Assembly (NCBI GenBank): GCA_040757115.1 | Contig: JBFLYA010000129.1 | Span: 1-10,826, forward strand | DNA length: 10,826 nucleotides | Direction: 5' to 3' | Source: a bacterium | GTDB taxonomy: Bacteria; UBA9089; CG2-30-40-21; SBAY01 | Shown here: piece by piece, positions 3,519-10,511 of the stretch | How positions within the stretch are numbered: position 1 is the stretch's first letter | Layout of the letters: each line of letters starts with the position of its first letter | Made by a program: the position numbers and the translations under genes | Notes under the pieces: generated by a model | What the model was told of the DNA's origin: nothing | What the model saw: only the letters and a program-made list of their open reading frames with translations | Database searches by the model: none

Positions 3519-4802
3519 GTGACTCTGAAGGCAAAAGCTAATGACGGGGAAATATCTGACGAGATACAACAAATAGCCAAAAGTGAAAATGTCACATTAG
3601 AATTTATTCAACAGGGGCTATGTGAAGGAACTATCGTTATTCCTCATAATCCTAATCATAAAAAACTATCCAGACAATGCGGTATTGGAAAGGGACTTCG
3701 GACGAAAGTCAATGCCAATATTGGAACATCACCGAGTATCACTAATCTTCAAGAAGAACTAAAAAAAACTGAAGTGGCAATCGAGGCGGGTGCGGATACG
3801 ATAATGGATTTATCTATTGGTGGAGATATAAGAAAGATAAGACTTGAAATACTTAAGGATTTAGAAGTGCCTCTTGGAACCGTGCCAATTTATCAAGCCG
3901 CTATCGAAGCCGTTGATAATAAAGGGTCAATCCTTGAAATGACCCCAGAATCAATCTTAAAGGTGATTGAAGAGCAGGCAAAAGATGGTGTTGACTTTAT
4001 GACTATTCATGCAGGTGTAACTAAACACACGATTGAAAGGTTAAAAAATCAAGAAAGAATTATGGATGTCGTTAGTCGAGGTGGGGCATTTTTAATCGAG
4101 TGGATGATTTTTCATAACCAGGAAAATCCACTTTATCAATATTTTGATGCTATCCTGAATATTGCTTTTGAATATGATATTGTTTTAAGTCTTGGTGATG
4201 GGCTACGGCCTGGTTGCTTAAAAGATGCCACTGATAGACCACAAATACAAGAATTAATCACCTTAGGTGAATTAACTAAGCGAGCCTTTGAAAAAAATGT
4301 TCAGGTAATGATTGAGGGACCAGGTCATATACCGATAAATCAAATTTCAGCAAATGTTTTATTAGAAAAAAGGCTATGTTACGAGGCACCATTTTATGTT
4401 TTGGGACCCCTTGTTACTGATATAGCCCCGGGTTATGACCATATTACCGGGGCAATAGGTGGAGCAATTGCGGCCGCTTCTGGTGCTGATTTCCTGTGTT
4501 ATGTTACCCCGGCAGAACATCTTAGACTCCCAACGATTGAGGATGTTAAGGAAGGAGTTATCACCTCAAGAATAGCCGCTCATGCCGGCGATGTCGCTAA
4601 AGGTATTCCTCATGCATTGGATAGGGATACACAAATGGCTAAGGCACGAAAAAAATTAGATTGGGAAACTCAAATTAAACTGGCAATTAACCCTGAAAGG
4701 GCAAGTAAATACCAACAACAATCTCCACCACTATCCGAAGGCTGCACGATGTGTGGGAAATATTGTGCGATGAAAGAGGTAGAAAAGTTTTTCAGGAGGT
4801 AA
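3519..4802 (+). CDS. thiC: Phosphomethylpyrimidine synthase ThiC
   Basis: ThiC is a radical-SAM enzyme that converts 5-aminoimidazole ribotide to HMP phosphate, the pyrimidine half of thiamine, in the cytoplasm. The 427-residue product matches the shorter ThiC form without the N-terminal extension of proteobacterial enzymes. Recognisable segments include CGIGKGLRTKVNANIGTS near the N-terminus, VDFMTIHAGVT, LSLGDGLRPG, MIEGPGHIP, LGPLVTDIAPGYDHITGAIG and ITSRIAAHAGD. The C-terminal cluster motif is CTMCGKYC (C409, C412, C416), spacing CX2CX3C, one residue tighter than the E. coli-type CX2CX4C. I believe this spacing occurs in short ThiC proteins, but an alignment is needed to confirm it. The start is GTG, 10 bases after AAGGAG and 5 bases after the sensor stop codon, so the genes are probably cotranscribed. 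No TPP riboswitch is visible upstream. No other thiamine gene is present. Confidence 0.95.
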   Translation: MTLKAKANDGEISDEIQQIAKSENVTLEFIQQGLCEGTIVIPHNPNHKKLSRQCGIGKGLRTKVNANIGTSPSITNLQEELKKTEVAIEAGADTIMDLSIGGDIRKIRLEILKDLEVPLGTVPIYQAAIEAVDNKGSILEMTPESILKVIEEQAKDGVDFMTIHAGVTKHTIERLKNQERIMDVVSRGGAFLIEWMIFHNQENPLYQYFDAILNIAFEYDIVLSLGDGLRPGCLKDATDRPQIQELITLGELTKRAFEKNVQVMIEGPGHIPINQISANVLLEKRLCYEAPFYVLGPLVTDIAPGYDHITGAIGGAIAAASGADFLCYVTPAEHLRLPTIEDVKEGVITSRIAAHAGDVAKGIPHALDRDTQMAKARKKLDWETQIKLAINPERASKYQQQSPPLSEGCTMCGKYCAMKEVEKFFRR

Positions 4803-4807
4803 AAAAA

Positions 4808-5596
4808 GTGGAGAAATACAAAATACAAAATACTAAATCTAAAATTAACCTATTAGTGTTTCTTATTATTTTAATAATAAATCCTGCATTAATCCTGGCA
4901 GAAGAATATTATGGTCCTAAAAAGAAAATTATTGTTGAGGATTTCTATGTTAATCTGAAGAATGTCCCTCCTCAAAGTGCTAAAATCTTTACTTCAAAAT
5001 TTAGATTAGCATTACTTAACACAAATAGGTTTGTGGTTAAAAAGGCAAAAACTGAAGAATTTACTCAAATGACCGTTCGTGGGAAAATCTTAAAATGTCA
5101 GGAAGAAAAATTAACTAAATGGTATGAGAAAACCTTACCAGCTCGATTCAGAGGACCAAAGATTACCAGGGCATACATTGTAGTAGCAATAGACCTATGT
5201 GACCCCAATAGAGATCTGGTAATTAAATCCTTTCGGATTAAAGGAGATGCAAAAGTAAGCGAGGGAAAATTAGGGGAAAAACCCACTGTGGATGTAGAAC
5301 ATTCGGCACTTGTTATGTCCATTAATAAGGTGCTAACAAAAGTAATTGGTGTGATAATTGCAGAAATGGAAAAATACAAATGGGAAGCAAAAATAACCAG
5401 TGTAAATGGGAATAAGCTCTACATTGACAGTGGATTAGAGGCAGACATAAAGGCAGGAACGGTCTTTAAAATATATGATGGGGAAACATTCATCGGTGAA
5501 ACGAAAATAATTGAAGTAAATAAAGATTTCTCAATTGGTCTTATGACAAAAAATGATGGAATTAAACCAAATATGAGCGTGAGGATGATGGAGTAA
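4808..5596 (+). CDS. Exported protein with CsgG/FlgT-like features, function unknown
   Basis: I place the start at GTG 4808, 7 bases after AGGAGGT (4794-4800), which overlaps the thiC stop codon. An in-frame ATG at 4751 lies inside thiC and would prepend 19 residues to the signal peptide, so I reject it. The 262-residue product has a basic n-region, a hydrophobic core (about 15-30) and a likely cleavage after ILA-31. Residues 36-185 show alternating strands and helices that recall CsgG or FlgT periplasmic domains (KIIVEDFYVN, then NTNRFVVKKA). Residues about 188-262 look like a small beta-barrel similar to the FlgT C-terminal domain (ITSVNGNKLYIDSGLEADIKAG ordering, short of certainty). It probably acts in the periplasm or at the outer membrane. 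No curli or flagellar genes are nearby, so a role in either is unsupported. The n-region codons derive from an AAATAC-type dispersed repeat. Confidence 0.7.
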   Translation: MEKYKIQNTKSKINLLVFLIILIINPALILAEEYYGPKKKIIVEDFYVNLKNVPPQSAKIFTSKFRLALLNTNRFVVKKAKTEEFTQMTVRGKILKCQEEKLTKWYEKTLPARFRGPKITRAYIVVAIDLCDPNRDLVIKSFRIKGDAKVSEGKLGEKPTVDVEHSALVMSINKVLTKVIGVIIAEMEKYKWEAKITSVNGNKLYIDSGLEADIKAGTVFKIYDGETFIGETKIIEVNKDFSIGLMTKNDGIKPNMSVRMME

Positions 5597-5610: not shown

Positions 5611-5918
5611 ATTTCTACGTAACTATTCACCGCAGAGACGCGGAGACACAGAGAAAAAATTAAAATCTATTGGTTATACGCTTAATTCCATCTCTTAGAA
5701 CAGAAACATTAAAATTGATCAATAAACTTATCCTTTTATTCATCATTTTTAGATAGGTTAAAAGTTGAGCTTCGTGAATCGGAAGTAGTTGCTCGACTGC
5801 TTTTAATTCTACGATAACTTTTTCTTCAACTAAAAGATCTATCCGGTATCCACAATCTAATTTAAATCCTTTTTTCTCTGTTCCTCTGCGTCTCTGCGGT
5901 GAATAGTTACATTTCTAC
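5611..5918. mobile_element. Deleted (MITE-like) GxxExxY element with 8-bp target duplication
   Basis: The element proper is 5619-5910 (292 bp). Its ends are inverted repeats of 41 bp, 5619-5659 and 5870-5910, with three mismatches by my count; both outer tips read GTAACTATTCACCGCAGAGA inward. The element is flanked by the perfect direct repeat ATTTCTAC at 5611-5618 and 5911-5918, which is direct evidence of transposition. The interior is about 96% identical by hand count to the left half of the element at 8601-9059 (eight mismatches in about 213 bases) but lacks 167 bp. It lies between two gene clusters. Its right end is 20 bp from the first codon of the ygjP-like gene. Confidence 0.88.
5660..5875 (-). 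pseudogene. C-terminal half of a GxxExxY protein gene
   Basis: Read on the - strand, this matches residues 56-125 of the intact GxxExxY protein encoded at 8642-9019, with few changes, for example Gly104 to Ser and Ala122 to Thr. The presumed catalytic core is kept (D67 and the E77-x-K79 pair in intact numbering). Residues 1-55, including the GxxExxY motif itself, are gone. The frame stays open upstream through the right terminal repeat to a stop just outside the element, but I see no ATG, GTG or TTG start before the Met-Met pair at residues 98-99. I therefore treat it as non-functional. The junction is at a run of six T, consistent with deletion between short T tracts. Confidence 0.8.
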
Positions 5919-6606: not shown

Positions 6607-8604
6607 ATGGATAAGATTTATCACATTTTGCAGAATAACTTTGGCTTTAGCCAATTTAAACCAGGTCAATTAGAAATTATCCAGGAGATATTGGCGAAAA
6701 GGGATGTTCTGGGTATTTTACCAACTGCGGGTGGGAAATCACTTTGCTATCAATTACCTGCAATTATCTCCTCTGGAGTAACTATCGTTATCTCGCCACT
6801 TATTGCCTTGATGAAAGACCAGGTAGATTCCTTTGAGGAGCTTGGTCATACAACGGCAACTTATATTAGCTCAGGGCTTTCTGTGAATCAAGTAAAAGTT
6901 CGATTAGAGAAAGTCAAACGAGGTGAATTTAAACTTCTGTATGTCTCTCCAGAGCGTATGCTTATGCCAGGTTTTAAAGAGGTATTATCCAGGATTAAAA
7001 TTAGTTTATTTGTTGTCGATGAGGCACATTGTGTTAGTCAATGGGGACACGATTTCAGACCTGAATATTTAAAACTTAAAGGTATATTTGCCCAATATCC
7101 CAAAACCCCTATCTTAACTATTACGGCAACCGCTACCCCACATGTCCAACAGGATATTATGACTCATCTGGGTTTGCGAAGAGCCAGGCAGGTAATTATA
7201 AGTTTTGACCGCCCTAATCTTGAATTTAGTGTCATTTCCACCCGAGTAAGTGAAAAAAGTGAGCATTTATTAAAGATTTTAAAAGCAGAGCCAGGCAGTT
7301 TTATCGTTTATGTCGCCAGACAAAAAGATGCCGAAGAAGTAGCTAACTTCCTTAAAACAAATCAAATCTCTGCTCTACCATATCATGCGGGACTTGGGAA
7401 TGAGACTCGATGGAAAACCCAGGAGGCTTTTATGTCTGGGGTAACGCGGGTAGTAGTCGCTACGGTTGCCTTTGGATTAGGTATTGATAAACCGGATATT
7501 CGCGGCATTATCCATTATCATACACCTGCCTCTTTAGAGGCTTACTATCAAGAAGCAGGTCGGTCAGGCAGGGATGGCAAAAAGGCAAAATGTATTCTCC
7601 TCTTTAATCGTAAAGATTTAGAGATTCACCGCTATTTTATCTATCAATCTTATCCAAGTTCACGAGAAATCTACTGGATATATCGTCAGCTGTGTGACGG
7701 GCTTTCTCCACAACAAATAATCGCCGAGGGGAAGAATGTCCACGAAACAAAGATGAATGTGGTCCTGAGGTTATTGGAGGAAGCAAATTGTATCCAATTA
7801 GGCGACAACCTCAAAATAACTAAAGGACTGAGATGGCTTAATATTAACCTGACAAATGAAGAAAGACGCAAGATGATGGAGCTTGATAGATTAAAAAAGA
7901 TGGTAGAATACGCTGAGAATAAAACCTGCCGTCGAGCATACATCCTTACTTATCTTGGTGAGCAAAATCTACATCCATCTTGTAATAATTGTGATGTTTG
8001 CCTTGGACTTACAACTGATGTCCAGAGTATTTATCAGGGAAAGATTGAAGCGATTATTTACGAGTGTGTTAAAGAATATGAAGGGAAAATGGGCAGACAG
8101 GGTTTTGCCCAATTACTTAATGGCAGTCAAAGTAACACTATGGAAACCCTGAACTTAAAGACATCAGCGTTTTATGGAAAATTAAGGGATTTTACTCAAA
8201 AAGAGATTATCGCTTTCATTGACAATTTCATAAGTAAAGGTTCACTTGAAGTAATCACAAAGGATTATCCGCTACTATTTCTATCTAAAGAAAAGACCGT
8301 TGATAAACCTGTCCCTCGAAAAGTAGGATTAGAGATTCTGCGATTAGTCCATAACTGGAATGGTAAATTACCATCATCCAGTATCGCCAATATCCTGAGG
8401 GGGGTAGAAACTTCTGATGCCATTATTAAATATGGTCAGGATATTTTTGGAGCACATTTTGGTATACTTAAAGAATATGATTATCATCAATTAAAAGAAT
8501 TTATTGACCTGATGCTTGCTAAAGGTTATCTTCAAAAGGAAAAGAATCAATTCTCCCTGAGCGAGGCAGGATTTGGTGTTTTGGGGATTAATCCTGAAGA
8601 GTAA
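6607..8604 (+). CDS. recQ: ATP-dependent DNA helicase RecQ, with an extra C-terminal winged-helix-like segment
   Basis: RecQ unwinds DNA 3' to 5' in recombination and replication-fork repair. The 665-residue protein has helicase motif I TAGGKS (40-45), DEAH (138-141) followed by CVSQWGHDFRPEY, motif III TATAT (173-177), motif V VATVAFGLGID and motif VI QEAGRSGRDG (315-324). The RecQ zinc site is C441 plus C459, C462 and C465. A winged-helix RQC domain spans about 475-563. There is no clear HRDC domain; residues about 572-658 instead look like a second, diverged RQC-like winged helix. The start is ATG 6607, preceded by a weak AGGG at 6593-6596. The last Glu codon takes its third base from, and the TAA stop (8602-8604) lies in, the GTAAC tip of the element at 8601-9059. 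The native C-terminus may therefore have been altered. Confidence 0.95.
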   Translation: MDKIYHILQNNFGFSQFKPGQLEIIQEILAKRDVLGILPTAGGKSLCYQLPAIISSGVTIVISPLIALMKDQVDSFEELGHTTATYISSGLSVNQVKVRLEKVKRGEFKLLYVSPERMLMPGFKEVLSRIKISLFVVDEAHCVSQWGHDFRPEYLKLKGIFAQYPKTPILTITATATPHVQQDIMTHLGLRRARQVIISFDRPNLEFSVISTRVSEKSEHLLKILKAEPGSFIVYVARQKDAEEVANFLKTNQISALPYHAGLGNETRWKTQEAFMSGVTRVVVATVAFGLGIDKPDIRGIIHYHTPASLEAYYQEAGRSGRDGKKAKCILLFNRKDLEIHRYFIYQSYPSSREIYWIYRQLCDGLSPQQIIAEGKNVHETKMNVVLRLLEEANCIQLGDNLKITKGLRWLNINLTNEERRKMMELDRLKKMVEYAENKTCRRAYILTYLGEQNLHPSCNNCDVCLGLTTDVQSIYQGKIEAIIYECVKEYEGKMGRQGFAQLLNGSQSNTMETLNLKTSAFYGKLRDFTQKEIIAFIDNFISKGSLEVITKDYPLLFLSKEKTVDKPVPRKVGLEILRLVHNWNGKLPSSSIANILRGVETSDAIIKYGQDIFGAHFGILKEYDYHQLKEFIDLMLAKGYLQKEKNQFSLSEAGFGVLGINPEE

Positions 8605-9059
8605 CTGTTCACCGCAGAGACGCAGAGACACAGAGGAAAAATTAAAATCTATTTGCTATACGCTTAATTCCATCTCTTAGAACAGAAACATTAAAATTGA
8701 TCAATAAACCAATCCTTTTATTCATCATTTTTAGGTAGGTTAAAAGTTGAGCTTCATGAATCGGAAGTAGTTGCTCGACTGCTTTTAATTCTACGATAAC
8801 TTTTTCTTCAACCAAAAGATCTATCCGGTATCCACAATCTAATTTAATTCCTTTGTATATTACAGGTAATTCAATTTGTCTTTTGAAAGCTAACCCCACC
8901 ATAGATAGCTCATAACATAAACATTCTTCGTATGCAGATTCTAATAGACCTGGACCTAATGTCTTATGTATTTCAATTGCTGCACCAATAATTTTTTCTG
9001 TTACCTGATTTATTTCCATGTTTTCTCTGTTCCTCTGCGTCTCTGCGGTGAATAGTTAC
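8601..9059. mobile_element. Full-length GxxExxY element with GTAAC terminal inverted repeats
   Basis: The ends are inverted repeats of about 39 bp: the left begins GTAACTGTTCACCGCAGAGA at 8601 and the right ends in the inverse of GTAACTATTCACCGCAGAGA at 9059, with about four mismatches. The repeat has internal 8-base periodicity (CGCAGAGA, CGCAGAGA, CACAGAGG). The 459-bp unit contains one gene, GxxExxY, on the - strand. It is the undeleted relative of the element at 5619-5910. The 8-base flanks (CCTGAAGA on the left, TAAAATAT on the right) do not match, so there is no target duplication. It sits between convergent recQ and bioD and forms the end of both reading frames. Confidence 0.85.
8642..9019 (-). 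CDS. GxxExxY protein, PD-(D/E)XK nuclease-fold family
   Basis: This 125-residue protein is of typical full length for the family. The name-giving motif is GLLESAY (residues 24-30). The nuclease-fold core is visible as [17 protein letters not shown], with D67, E77 and K79 in the D...ExK arrangement, followed by a [10 protein letters not shown] helix containing Gln91. The family is usually annotated as unknown function; nuclease activity is inferred from the fold. Both start (ATG 9017-9019) and stop lie inside a transposable unit. The only ribosome-binding-like sequence, GAGG (9032-9035 on the complement), lies 12 bases upstream and belongs to the terminal repeat itself. The bioD frame overlaps its first 47 bases in another frame. 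Confidence 0.88.
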
Positions 9060-9764
9060 TAAAATATCAACCTTCAAATTCTCTTTTAATAAATTAATAA
9101 TATTCCCTGGATTTCCCTTTTCAAGGTTAATTTCAGGATTATATGGAATAATAGCAAGTATTGGCACTTTAGATAATGTCTGGATTATTTGAGGATTTGT
9201 CTTTTCAACTATCGTCGCCTCATCTTCTTTAAACATATTTATCACTACCCCAAAAATCCGAATTCCTTGTGATTGAGCCTGTTTGATAGTTAATAAGGTA
9301 TGGTTTATCGTGCCTAAGGAAGGTTTAGCTACGATTAAAATAGGCAGGTCTAAATCCTTGATTAAATCTATCATCAGGTAATTATCTTTAATCGGAACTA
9401 ATATCCCACCCGTACCCTCAACTATAACTATATCATACCTTGATTTTAATTCACGGTAGGAGGCGAGAATTTTTTCAATATCTATTTTTACGCCCGTTAT
9501 TTGACTTGCGACTAATGGTGCGACCGCAGGTTCTAAGCAGTAAGGATTTAACAATTTAACATCTTCCACAATCCCGGAGGTTTTAATCATCAACTCTAAA
9601 TCCTGAGAGATAAGTTTTCCCTCTCTTTTAACCGCTCCGGTCTGGATAGGTTTCATCACACCTACTTTTAACCCTTTTTCTCTAAACAGCCCGGCTAACC
9701 CCGCCGCAATTACTGTCTTGCCCACCTCCGTATCTGTCCCTGTAACGAATAATCCTTTCACCAT
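8973..9764 (-). CDS. bioD: Dethiobiotin synthetase BioD with an element-derived C-terminal tail
   Basis: BioD performs the ATP-dependent carboxylation of 7,8-diaminononanoate to dethiobiotin, the penultimate step of biotin synthesis. The P-loop GTDTEVGKT (9-17, Lys16) is at the N-terminus, followed by KPIQTG (38-43) and [11 protein letters not shown] (115-125), all typical. The open frame is 263 residues, longer than the roughly 220-240 usual for the family. Residues 236-263 (from the Val codon at 9057-9059) are translated from the inverted-repeat element and include [12 protein letters not shown], a translation of the terminal repeat. The native end must have been near residue 235 and has been replaced. 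The catalytic core is complete, so activity is plausible. No other bio gene is in the window. Confidence 0.93.
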
Positions 9765-10174: not shown

Positions 10175-10187
10175 CCTGAACGCTTAC
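10175..10187. repeat. Solitary GTAAGCGTTCAGG element end
   Basis: CCTGAACGCTTAC is one base different from CCTGAACGGTTAC at 110-122 and 10499-10511. Inverted, it reads GTAAGCGTTCAGG, similar to the outer tips of the GTAAC elements. It abuts the TGA stop codon of a short protein remnant at 10188-10190. I could not find a partner end. Confidence 0.4.
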
Positions 10188-10264: not shown

Positions 10265-10511
10265 GTAACCGTTCACCGCAGAGACACAGAGATGCAGAGA
10301 AAAAAATTAAAATCTATTCACCAGAGACAGAAATTTCCTTTTTTTTGTACATTTCGGGTCTTTCGTTGTTTATTAATCTTTTAATACTTACTTTTGACTA
10401 ACTGTTTTTAAGCCTTTTTAAACACCGAAAAACGCGAAAAAGAGGGAAAAAAAGATATTTTCCTCTCTGTTTCTCTGCGTCTCTGCGGTAAAGGATTACC
10501 TGAACGGTTAC
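10265..10511. mobile_element. Third, gene-less relative of the GTAAC element
   Basis: The left end (10265 on) reads GTAACCGTTCACCGCAGAGA. The right end, inverted from 10499, reads GTAATCCTTTACCGCAGAGA. The arms extend about 36 bp with roughly six mismatches. The left arm is followed by AATTAAAATCTATT, the same junction as in the two GxxExxY copies, which shows common origin. The interior has no trace of GxxExxY. If the right end is 10499, the flanks CAGAAAGG and CTGAACGG agree at six of eight positions, perhaps an eroded target duplication. A second nested end, CCTGAACGGTTAC (10499-10511), offers an alternative boundary. Confidence 0.6.

Follow-up and report, generated by a model that had tools for sequence, protein, structure and literature searches.

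A 292-bp miniature element with IS66-type ends and an interior derived from a GxxExxY cassette

Mobile insertion cassettes are passenger genes that lie between IS ends without a transposase, and GTAA ends together with an 8-bp target duplication form a pattern known for IS66. Within the ISBst12 group, ISDge4 consists of a single 449-aa ORF between the ends GTGACTACTCAGCA and GTAACTGCTCAGCA, and an 8-bp duplication was found upon its observed transposition (PMC12898284). The 292-bp element that we describe here, located in a window of 10,826 nucleotides (the whole stretch of DNA that was analysed), shares features with each of several such systems. Its relation to the ISBst12 group is seen in the outer ends (GTAACTATTCA and GTAACCGTTCAG/C here versus GTAACTGCTCAGCA in ISDge4), in the 8-bp target duplication common to both and in the fact that such ends also enclose single-ORF IS66 transposases in this phylum. 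Unlike a member of that group, however, the element has no transposase, and its interior gives no IS66 match but contains a GxxExxY remnant instead. Like bacterial MITEs, it is short, transposase-free, bounded by inverted IS ends, flanked by a target duplication and present in many copies, but here the ends are of the IS66 type, only the outer 11 bp are common across many unrelated interiors, and the units are not one deletion derivative of one IS. The longer relatives of the element resemble mobile insertion cassettes in that IS-type ends, flanked by 8-bp duplications, enclose a GxxExxY or a four-helix-bundle gene; they are set apart by their IS66-type ends, their GxxExxY and 23S-IVP genes and their very high copy number. 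The element's interior in turn comes from a gene cassette of the GxxExxY type (TIGR04256 / PF13366), in which inverted CCRCAGAG repeats occur across phyla, although such cassettes in other phyla have neither GTAAC ends nor a target duplication. A literature search found nothing on point for IS66-derived MITEs and no paper explaining CCGCAGAGACGC-type repeats or GxxExxY genes, both of which recur across genomes of many phyla. As argued below, we consider it highly probable that this is a non-autonomous miniature element with IS66-type ends and a GxxExxY-cassette interior, moved by an IS66-family transposase of the ISBst12 group.

Structure and setting of the element

The element occupies positions 5619–5910 of the window (no strand assigned) and is delimited both by its inverted repeat and by near-identical copies elsewhere. 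An inverted-repeat search placed its two 41-nt arms at 5619–5659 (plus strand) and 5870–5910 (minus strand), 210 nt apart and 38/41 complementary (93%), with three mismatches. The putative transposase recognition end is the outermost 11-mer, which reads GTAACTATTCA at 5619–5629 on the plus strand and recurs as its reverse complement at 5900–5910 (minus strand), as placed by the inverted repeat and by the end survey described below; subterminal CCGCAGAGACGCGGAGACACAGAG lies inside the left arm. Directly outside these ends, the exact 8-bp sequence ATTTCTAC is read (without strand) at both 5611–5618 and 5911–5918. An ORF at 4751–5596 ends shortly before the element, and a ygjP-like gene (5931), which is followed by recQ, starts 12 bp after it. 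The repeats with their three mismatches, the exact duplication and the location between genes are all as the original prediction had described them. No transposase gene is present inside the 292 bp, where only a GxxExxY remnant was found, and the element, being short with inverted ends, qualifies as a MITE. A further unit of 247 bp (10265–10511, no strand) has the ends GTAACCGTTCACCGCAGAG and GTAACCGTTCAGGTAATCC and is without a target duplication. Lone right-type ends, TGAACGGTTAC and TGAACGCTTAC, were also noted in the window at 112–122 and 10177–10187, with no partner identified for them.

Movement of units that share an 11-bp end

The 292-bp form is present in 11 near-full-length copies of 96–100% identity, distributed between this genome and a genome of the same genus (G001). 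Six of these copies are flanked by exact 8-bp duplications of six different targets (ATTTCTAC, ACGAAATT, GCCATAAT, TCACGAAA, CTTCATTA and TGCGAATC). The 292-bp element is thus a real mobile unit that inserted as a discrete piece, as had been proposed for it.

We also looked for empty sites in G001 by searching with the joined flanks of duplication-bearing units (approximately 23 of 32 junctions) and re-aligning the matches to the junctions. At the site of the element itself, G001 has one ATTTCTACTATTA and lacks the element, while the upstream spacer differs and extra sequence is present downstream; the empty site that had been anticipated in a relative therefore exists, but its surroundings have changed and it is not perfectly clean. 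Exact empty sites, each with a single 8-mer and matching all or the greater part of the junction query at 96–100% identity, were found in G001 for six related units (L068:3060, L069:19625, L075:9751, L078:14892, L087:397 and L097:16478), with orthology less certain for the L069 and L097 sites, whose flanks are repeated. The unit at L078:14892–15402 is 511 bp long and carries a GxxExxY gene with one in-frame stop, and since its site is empty in G001 a GxxExxY cassette is seen here both filled and empty. A cassette caught in both states with an exact 8-bp duplication points to a way of spreading that can be tested.

The boundary of these units is not the one first proposed. The CCGCAGAGACGCAGAGA repeat had been taken as the unit end, whereas the end is the outer GTAACTATTCA; CCGCAGAGA is subterminal and missing from many units that have these ends and duplications, and the GxxExxY cassettes that it flanks in other phyla have neither a GTAAC end nor a duplication. 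When CCGCAGAGA was used as the unit boundary the ends of many pairs were misplaced, and use of the outer GTAA...TTCA end fixed the placement. The annotation boundary for such units is thus 11 bp and not the conspicuous repeat. These outer 11 bp, GTAA(C/G)YRTTCA, are common to units with unrelated interiors, including CCGCAGAGACGC, CCACAGAGGCACAGAG, CCACTGATTAACACGGAT, CCACGAAGGGCACGGAG, GGCTATATATC/GGTGGTGTAAC, CCTGTAGG and others. The ends are not conserved beyond about position 13, with positions 1–4 and 8–11 being fixed by the search pattern.

The end was surveyed in 1.47 Mb of the 4.32-Mb genome, a non-random sample that took the largest contigs first and added contigs with GxxExxY or IS66 matches. 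The exact end occurs 544 times in this sample and its reversed pattern 60 times; adjacent convergent end pairs less than 1 kb apart number 150. An exact 8-bp duplication flanks 53 of the 150 pairs where shuffled flanks give an expectation of 0.44, and no duplications were observed among them at 9 bp or at shifted offsets. The check proposed with the original prediction, that other paired copies should show 8-bp duplications, was thus positive for both the 292-bp form and the wider set of pairs. About two thirds of the pairs lack an exact duplication, presumably through age, recombination or mispairing. The duplicated targets are 76% A+T as compared with 63% in the sampled genome.

Over the whole genome GTAACYRTTCA occurs 1065 times, against 22 for the reversed pattern, and its count is 1074 in G001, 717 in a genome from another family of the phylum (G008) and near background outside the phylum. 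Counting two ends for each, we infer roughly 500 units per genome, so that in a 4.3-Mb genome one short end would drive many unrelated interiors, a heavy burden of miniature elements with IS66-type ends. The same ends in G008 enclose partly different interiors, and 8 of 32 pairs there have 8-bp duplications (0.24 expected). Some CCGCAGAG-type units have another end, TCCACCTGTGCGATTAGACTAATTCATCGCAGAG (L079 4179–4384, L082 9740–10038 and L077 11487), and some of these are chimeras whose opposite end is of the GTAAC type, from which it appears that the repeats may swap ends by recombination.

A GxxExxY cassette as the source of the interior

Sequence comparison within the window identified a 459-bp parental form at 8601–9059 (no strand) that has the same kind of ends and an intact GxxExxY gene but no target duplication, its flanks being CCTGAAGA and TAAAATAT. 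The gene (8642–9019, minus strand) encodes a 125-aa protein of the PD-(D/E)XK nuclease superfamily (PF13366, E=2.9e-46; TIGR04256, E=6.2e-48); no solved structures related to GxxExxY by sequence were found. Positions 5619–5872 of the element are 96% identical to 8601–8854, and its right arm from 5872 to 5910 is identical to 9021–9059. Together these matches indicate that the 292-bp element lost approximately 167 bp, and alignment of the deletion junction shows that the loss took the N-terminal half of the GxxExxY gene. What is left is a C-terminal remnant of 70 codons at 5663–5872 on the minus strand, which by tblastn matches residues 56–125 of the intact copy with 96% identity; the TIGR04256 match in the element spans 5675–5908 (81 bits). 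The interior therefore matches a GxxExxY cassette and is not what an internal deletion of IS66 DNA would leave, and we file the element as IS66-ended and not as an IS66 deletion derivative. The earlier reading had overlooked the origin of the interior in the tail of a GxxExxY nuclease gene, a fuller copy of which is in the same window.

Several side observations concern the 459-bp unit. The recQ stop codon (TAA, 8602–8604) falls within its GTAAC end, and the bioD frame (8973–9764, minus strand) enters the unit and terminates inside it (8973–9059). At the same recQ–bioD junction G001 has a 292-bp form (L241 9123–9414, contig C122) that shares its SNPs with the 459-bp unit of the window (2 differences in 287) but has the deletion junction of the 292-bp family; judging from this combination, it would be either the birth site of the family or a product of gene conversion. 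Distances for the G0_C215 row of this alignment, which was wrongly oriented, are disregarded.

The genome contains 68 GxxExxY matches, many of which are fragments, and short remnants are kept by other miniature families. An open GxxExxY gene lies in a unit at L118 4650–5145 that has the 8-bp duplication TTATACAC. A unit with the same ends at L270 15465–15948, with the exact duplication AATAATTC, carries instead a four-helix-bundle / 23S-rRNA-intervening-sequence-protein gene (TIGR02436, 1.7e-29; PF05635, 1.4e-29), which suggests one route by which this family spreads. Outside the phylum, the gene is flanked on both sides by purine-rich repeats in inverted orientation at 43 of 80 GxxExxY loci drawn from many phyla, the repeats being mostly TTCA|CCRCAGAG or a near variant. 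Nearly all of the CCRCAGAG-flanked loci are without the GTAAC end, and target duplications around the 43 cassettes did not rise above chance at any of the many offsets and lengths tried. Since the repeats occur elsewhere without the GTAAC end or the duplication, the GxxExxY gene plus its repeats is a wider unit, which in this phylum lies inside IS66-type ends. In some other phyla (L164, L182, L163 and L194) the CCRCAGAG repeats around GxxExxY form arrays with repeated flanks, spaced at about 57, 60, 149 and 271 bp.

One reading of this relationship is that the GxxExxY nuclease, alone or with host factors, mobilises the units and that the 292-bp element arose by deletion from a GxxExxY transposon in which the nuclease is the sole gene. 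Several duplication-flanked miniature families do hold N- or C-terminal GxxExxY remnants, which is the classical relation of miniature to parent; GxxExxY genes lie between inverted CCRCAGAG repeats in many phyla; and most differences between the window copy and the copy nearest to it are silent (dN/dS 0.085, a value for close pairs only, frames L040, L046 and L050 being non-homologous in the alignment). We nevertheless regard this reading as very unlikely, as the same ends and 8-bp duplications also mark units without detectable GxxExxY, one of them the unit with the four-helix-bundle gene, the 43 cassettes in other phyla have neither, and the same ends bound IS66 genes. A more limited role for the nucleases is doubtful too: they might aid the movement or persistence of these units, for instance as an accessory to an IS66-type transposase acting on the purine-rich subterminal repeats. 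If so, CCRCAGAG-flanked GxxExxY cassettes would be one cross-phylum mobile class that borrows different transposon ends.

An IS66-family transposase as the candidate enzyme

The ends of the miniature units also bound IS66 genes or their remnants in several genomes of the phylum, where they read GTAAC(C/T)(G/A)TTCA. One example in this genome is a transposase gene of the IS66 family that contains two stops and is enclosed by GTAACCGTTCAGG ends (L106 3061–4623). In a genome of the same order (G004), an open single-ORF transposase of 468 aa (NF033517; ORF at L227 1375–2781) stands alone between GTAACCGTTCAC ends (L227 1339–2843), and IS66 fragments adjoin the same ends in five further genomes (G002, G006, G007, G008 and G014). 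The IS66 copies that we saw are themselves without 8-bp duplications.

We found only decayed IS66 copies in the 462 contigs of this assembly and no intact transposase in G001, despite more than 1000 end sites in each genome and insertions that differ between the two. Mobilisation in trans is therefore the best-supported reading of the sequences, and the intact transposase may have been lost or may be missing from the fragmented assembly. Contig C130 ends in an IS66-like fragment, which was considered as an intact source and rejected because it is interrupted. Numbers of transposases and of miniature elements are uncorrelated, as G004, with the clearest intact IS66 gene, has only 28 end sites.

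These observations also bear on the idea that the units are moved by a DDE transposase of some other family with similar ends, the IS66 remnants beside GTAAC ends being a coincidence. It would account for the lack of an intact IS66 gene in the two genomes richest in end sites and for the single decayed C-terminal IS66 fragment found in G008 alongside 717 end sites. Against it, IS66 genes or fragments adjoin these exact ends in several genomes, and the 8-bp duplication and GTAAC...TCAG end match the experimentally observed ISBst12-group insertion (PMC12898284). Furthermore, none of the units of 800–2600 bp that have the two ends and an exact or almost exact duplication, collected from approximately 1.87 Mb, contains a long ORF for another transposase. 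We give this idea only a slim chance.

According to the IS66 model that we favor, a single-ORF transposase of the ISBst12 group would recognise the 11-bp ends GTAA(C/G)YRTTCA and, acting in trans, would insert the unit into A+T-rich DNA, leaving the 8-bp duplication. The GxxExxY cassette with its purine-rich inverted repeats (CCGCAGAGACGCAGAG) sits within IS66-type ends that it presumably acquired by recombination or capture. Recombination within shared repeats is one conceivable way into such ends, an idea suggested by the mixed-end units. Loss of the cassette's middle then produced the 292-bp form, copies of which have in turn spread to new sites.

A static repeat hairpin, such as a terminator or a protein-binding repeat, with an incidental flanking ATTTCTAC match would fit the long, potentially folding arms and the location between genes, but is already refuted by the filled and empty sites between sister genomes and by the six copies whose targets differ and are each duplicated exactly over 8 bp, and its probability is close to nil.

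The IS66 transposases of G002 (L228) and G004 (L227) are 98% identical although they come from different families of the phylum, which suggests recent horizontal transfer or cross-contamination of the assemblies.
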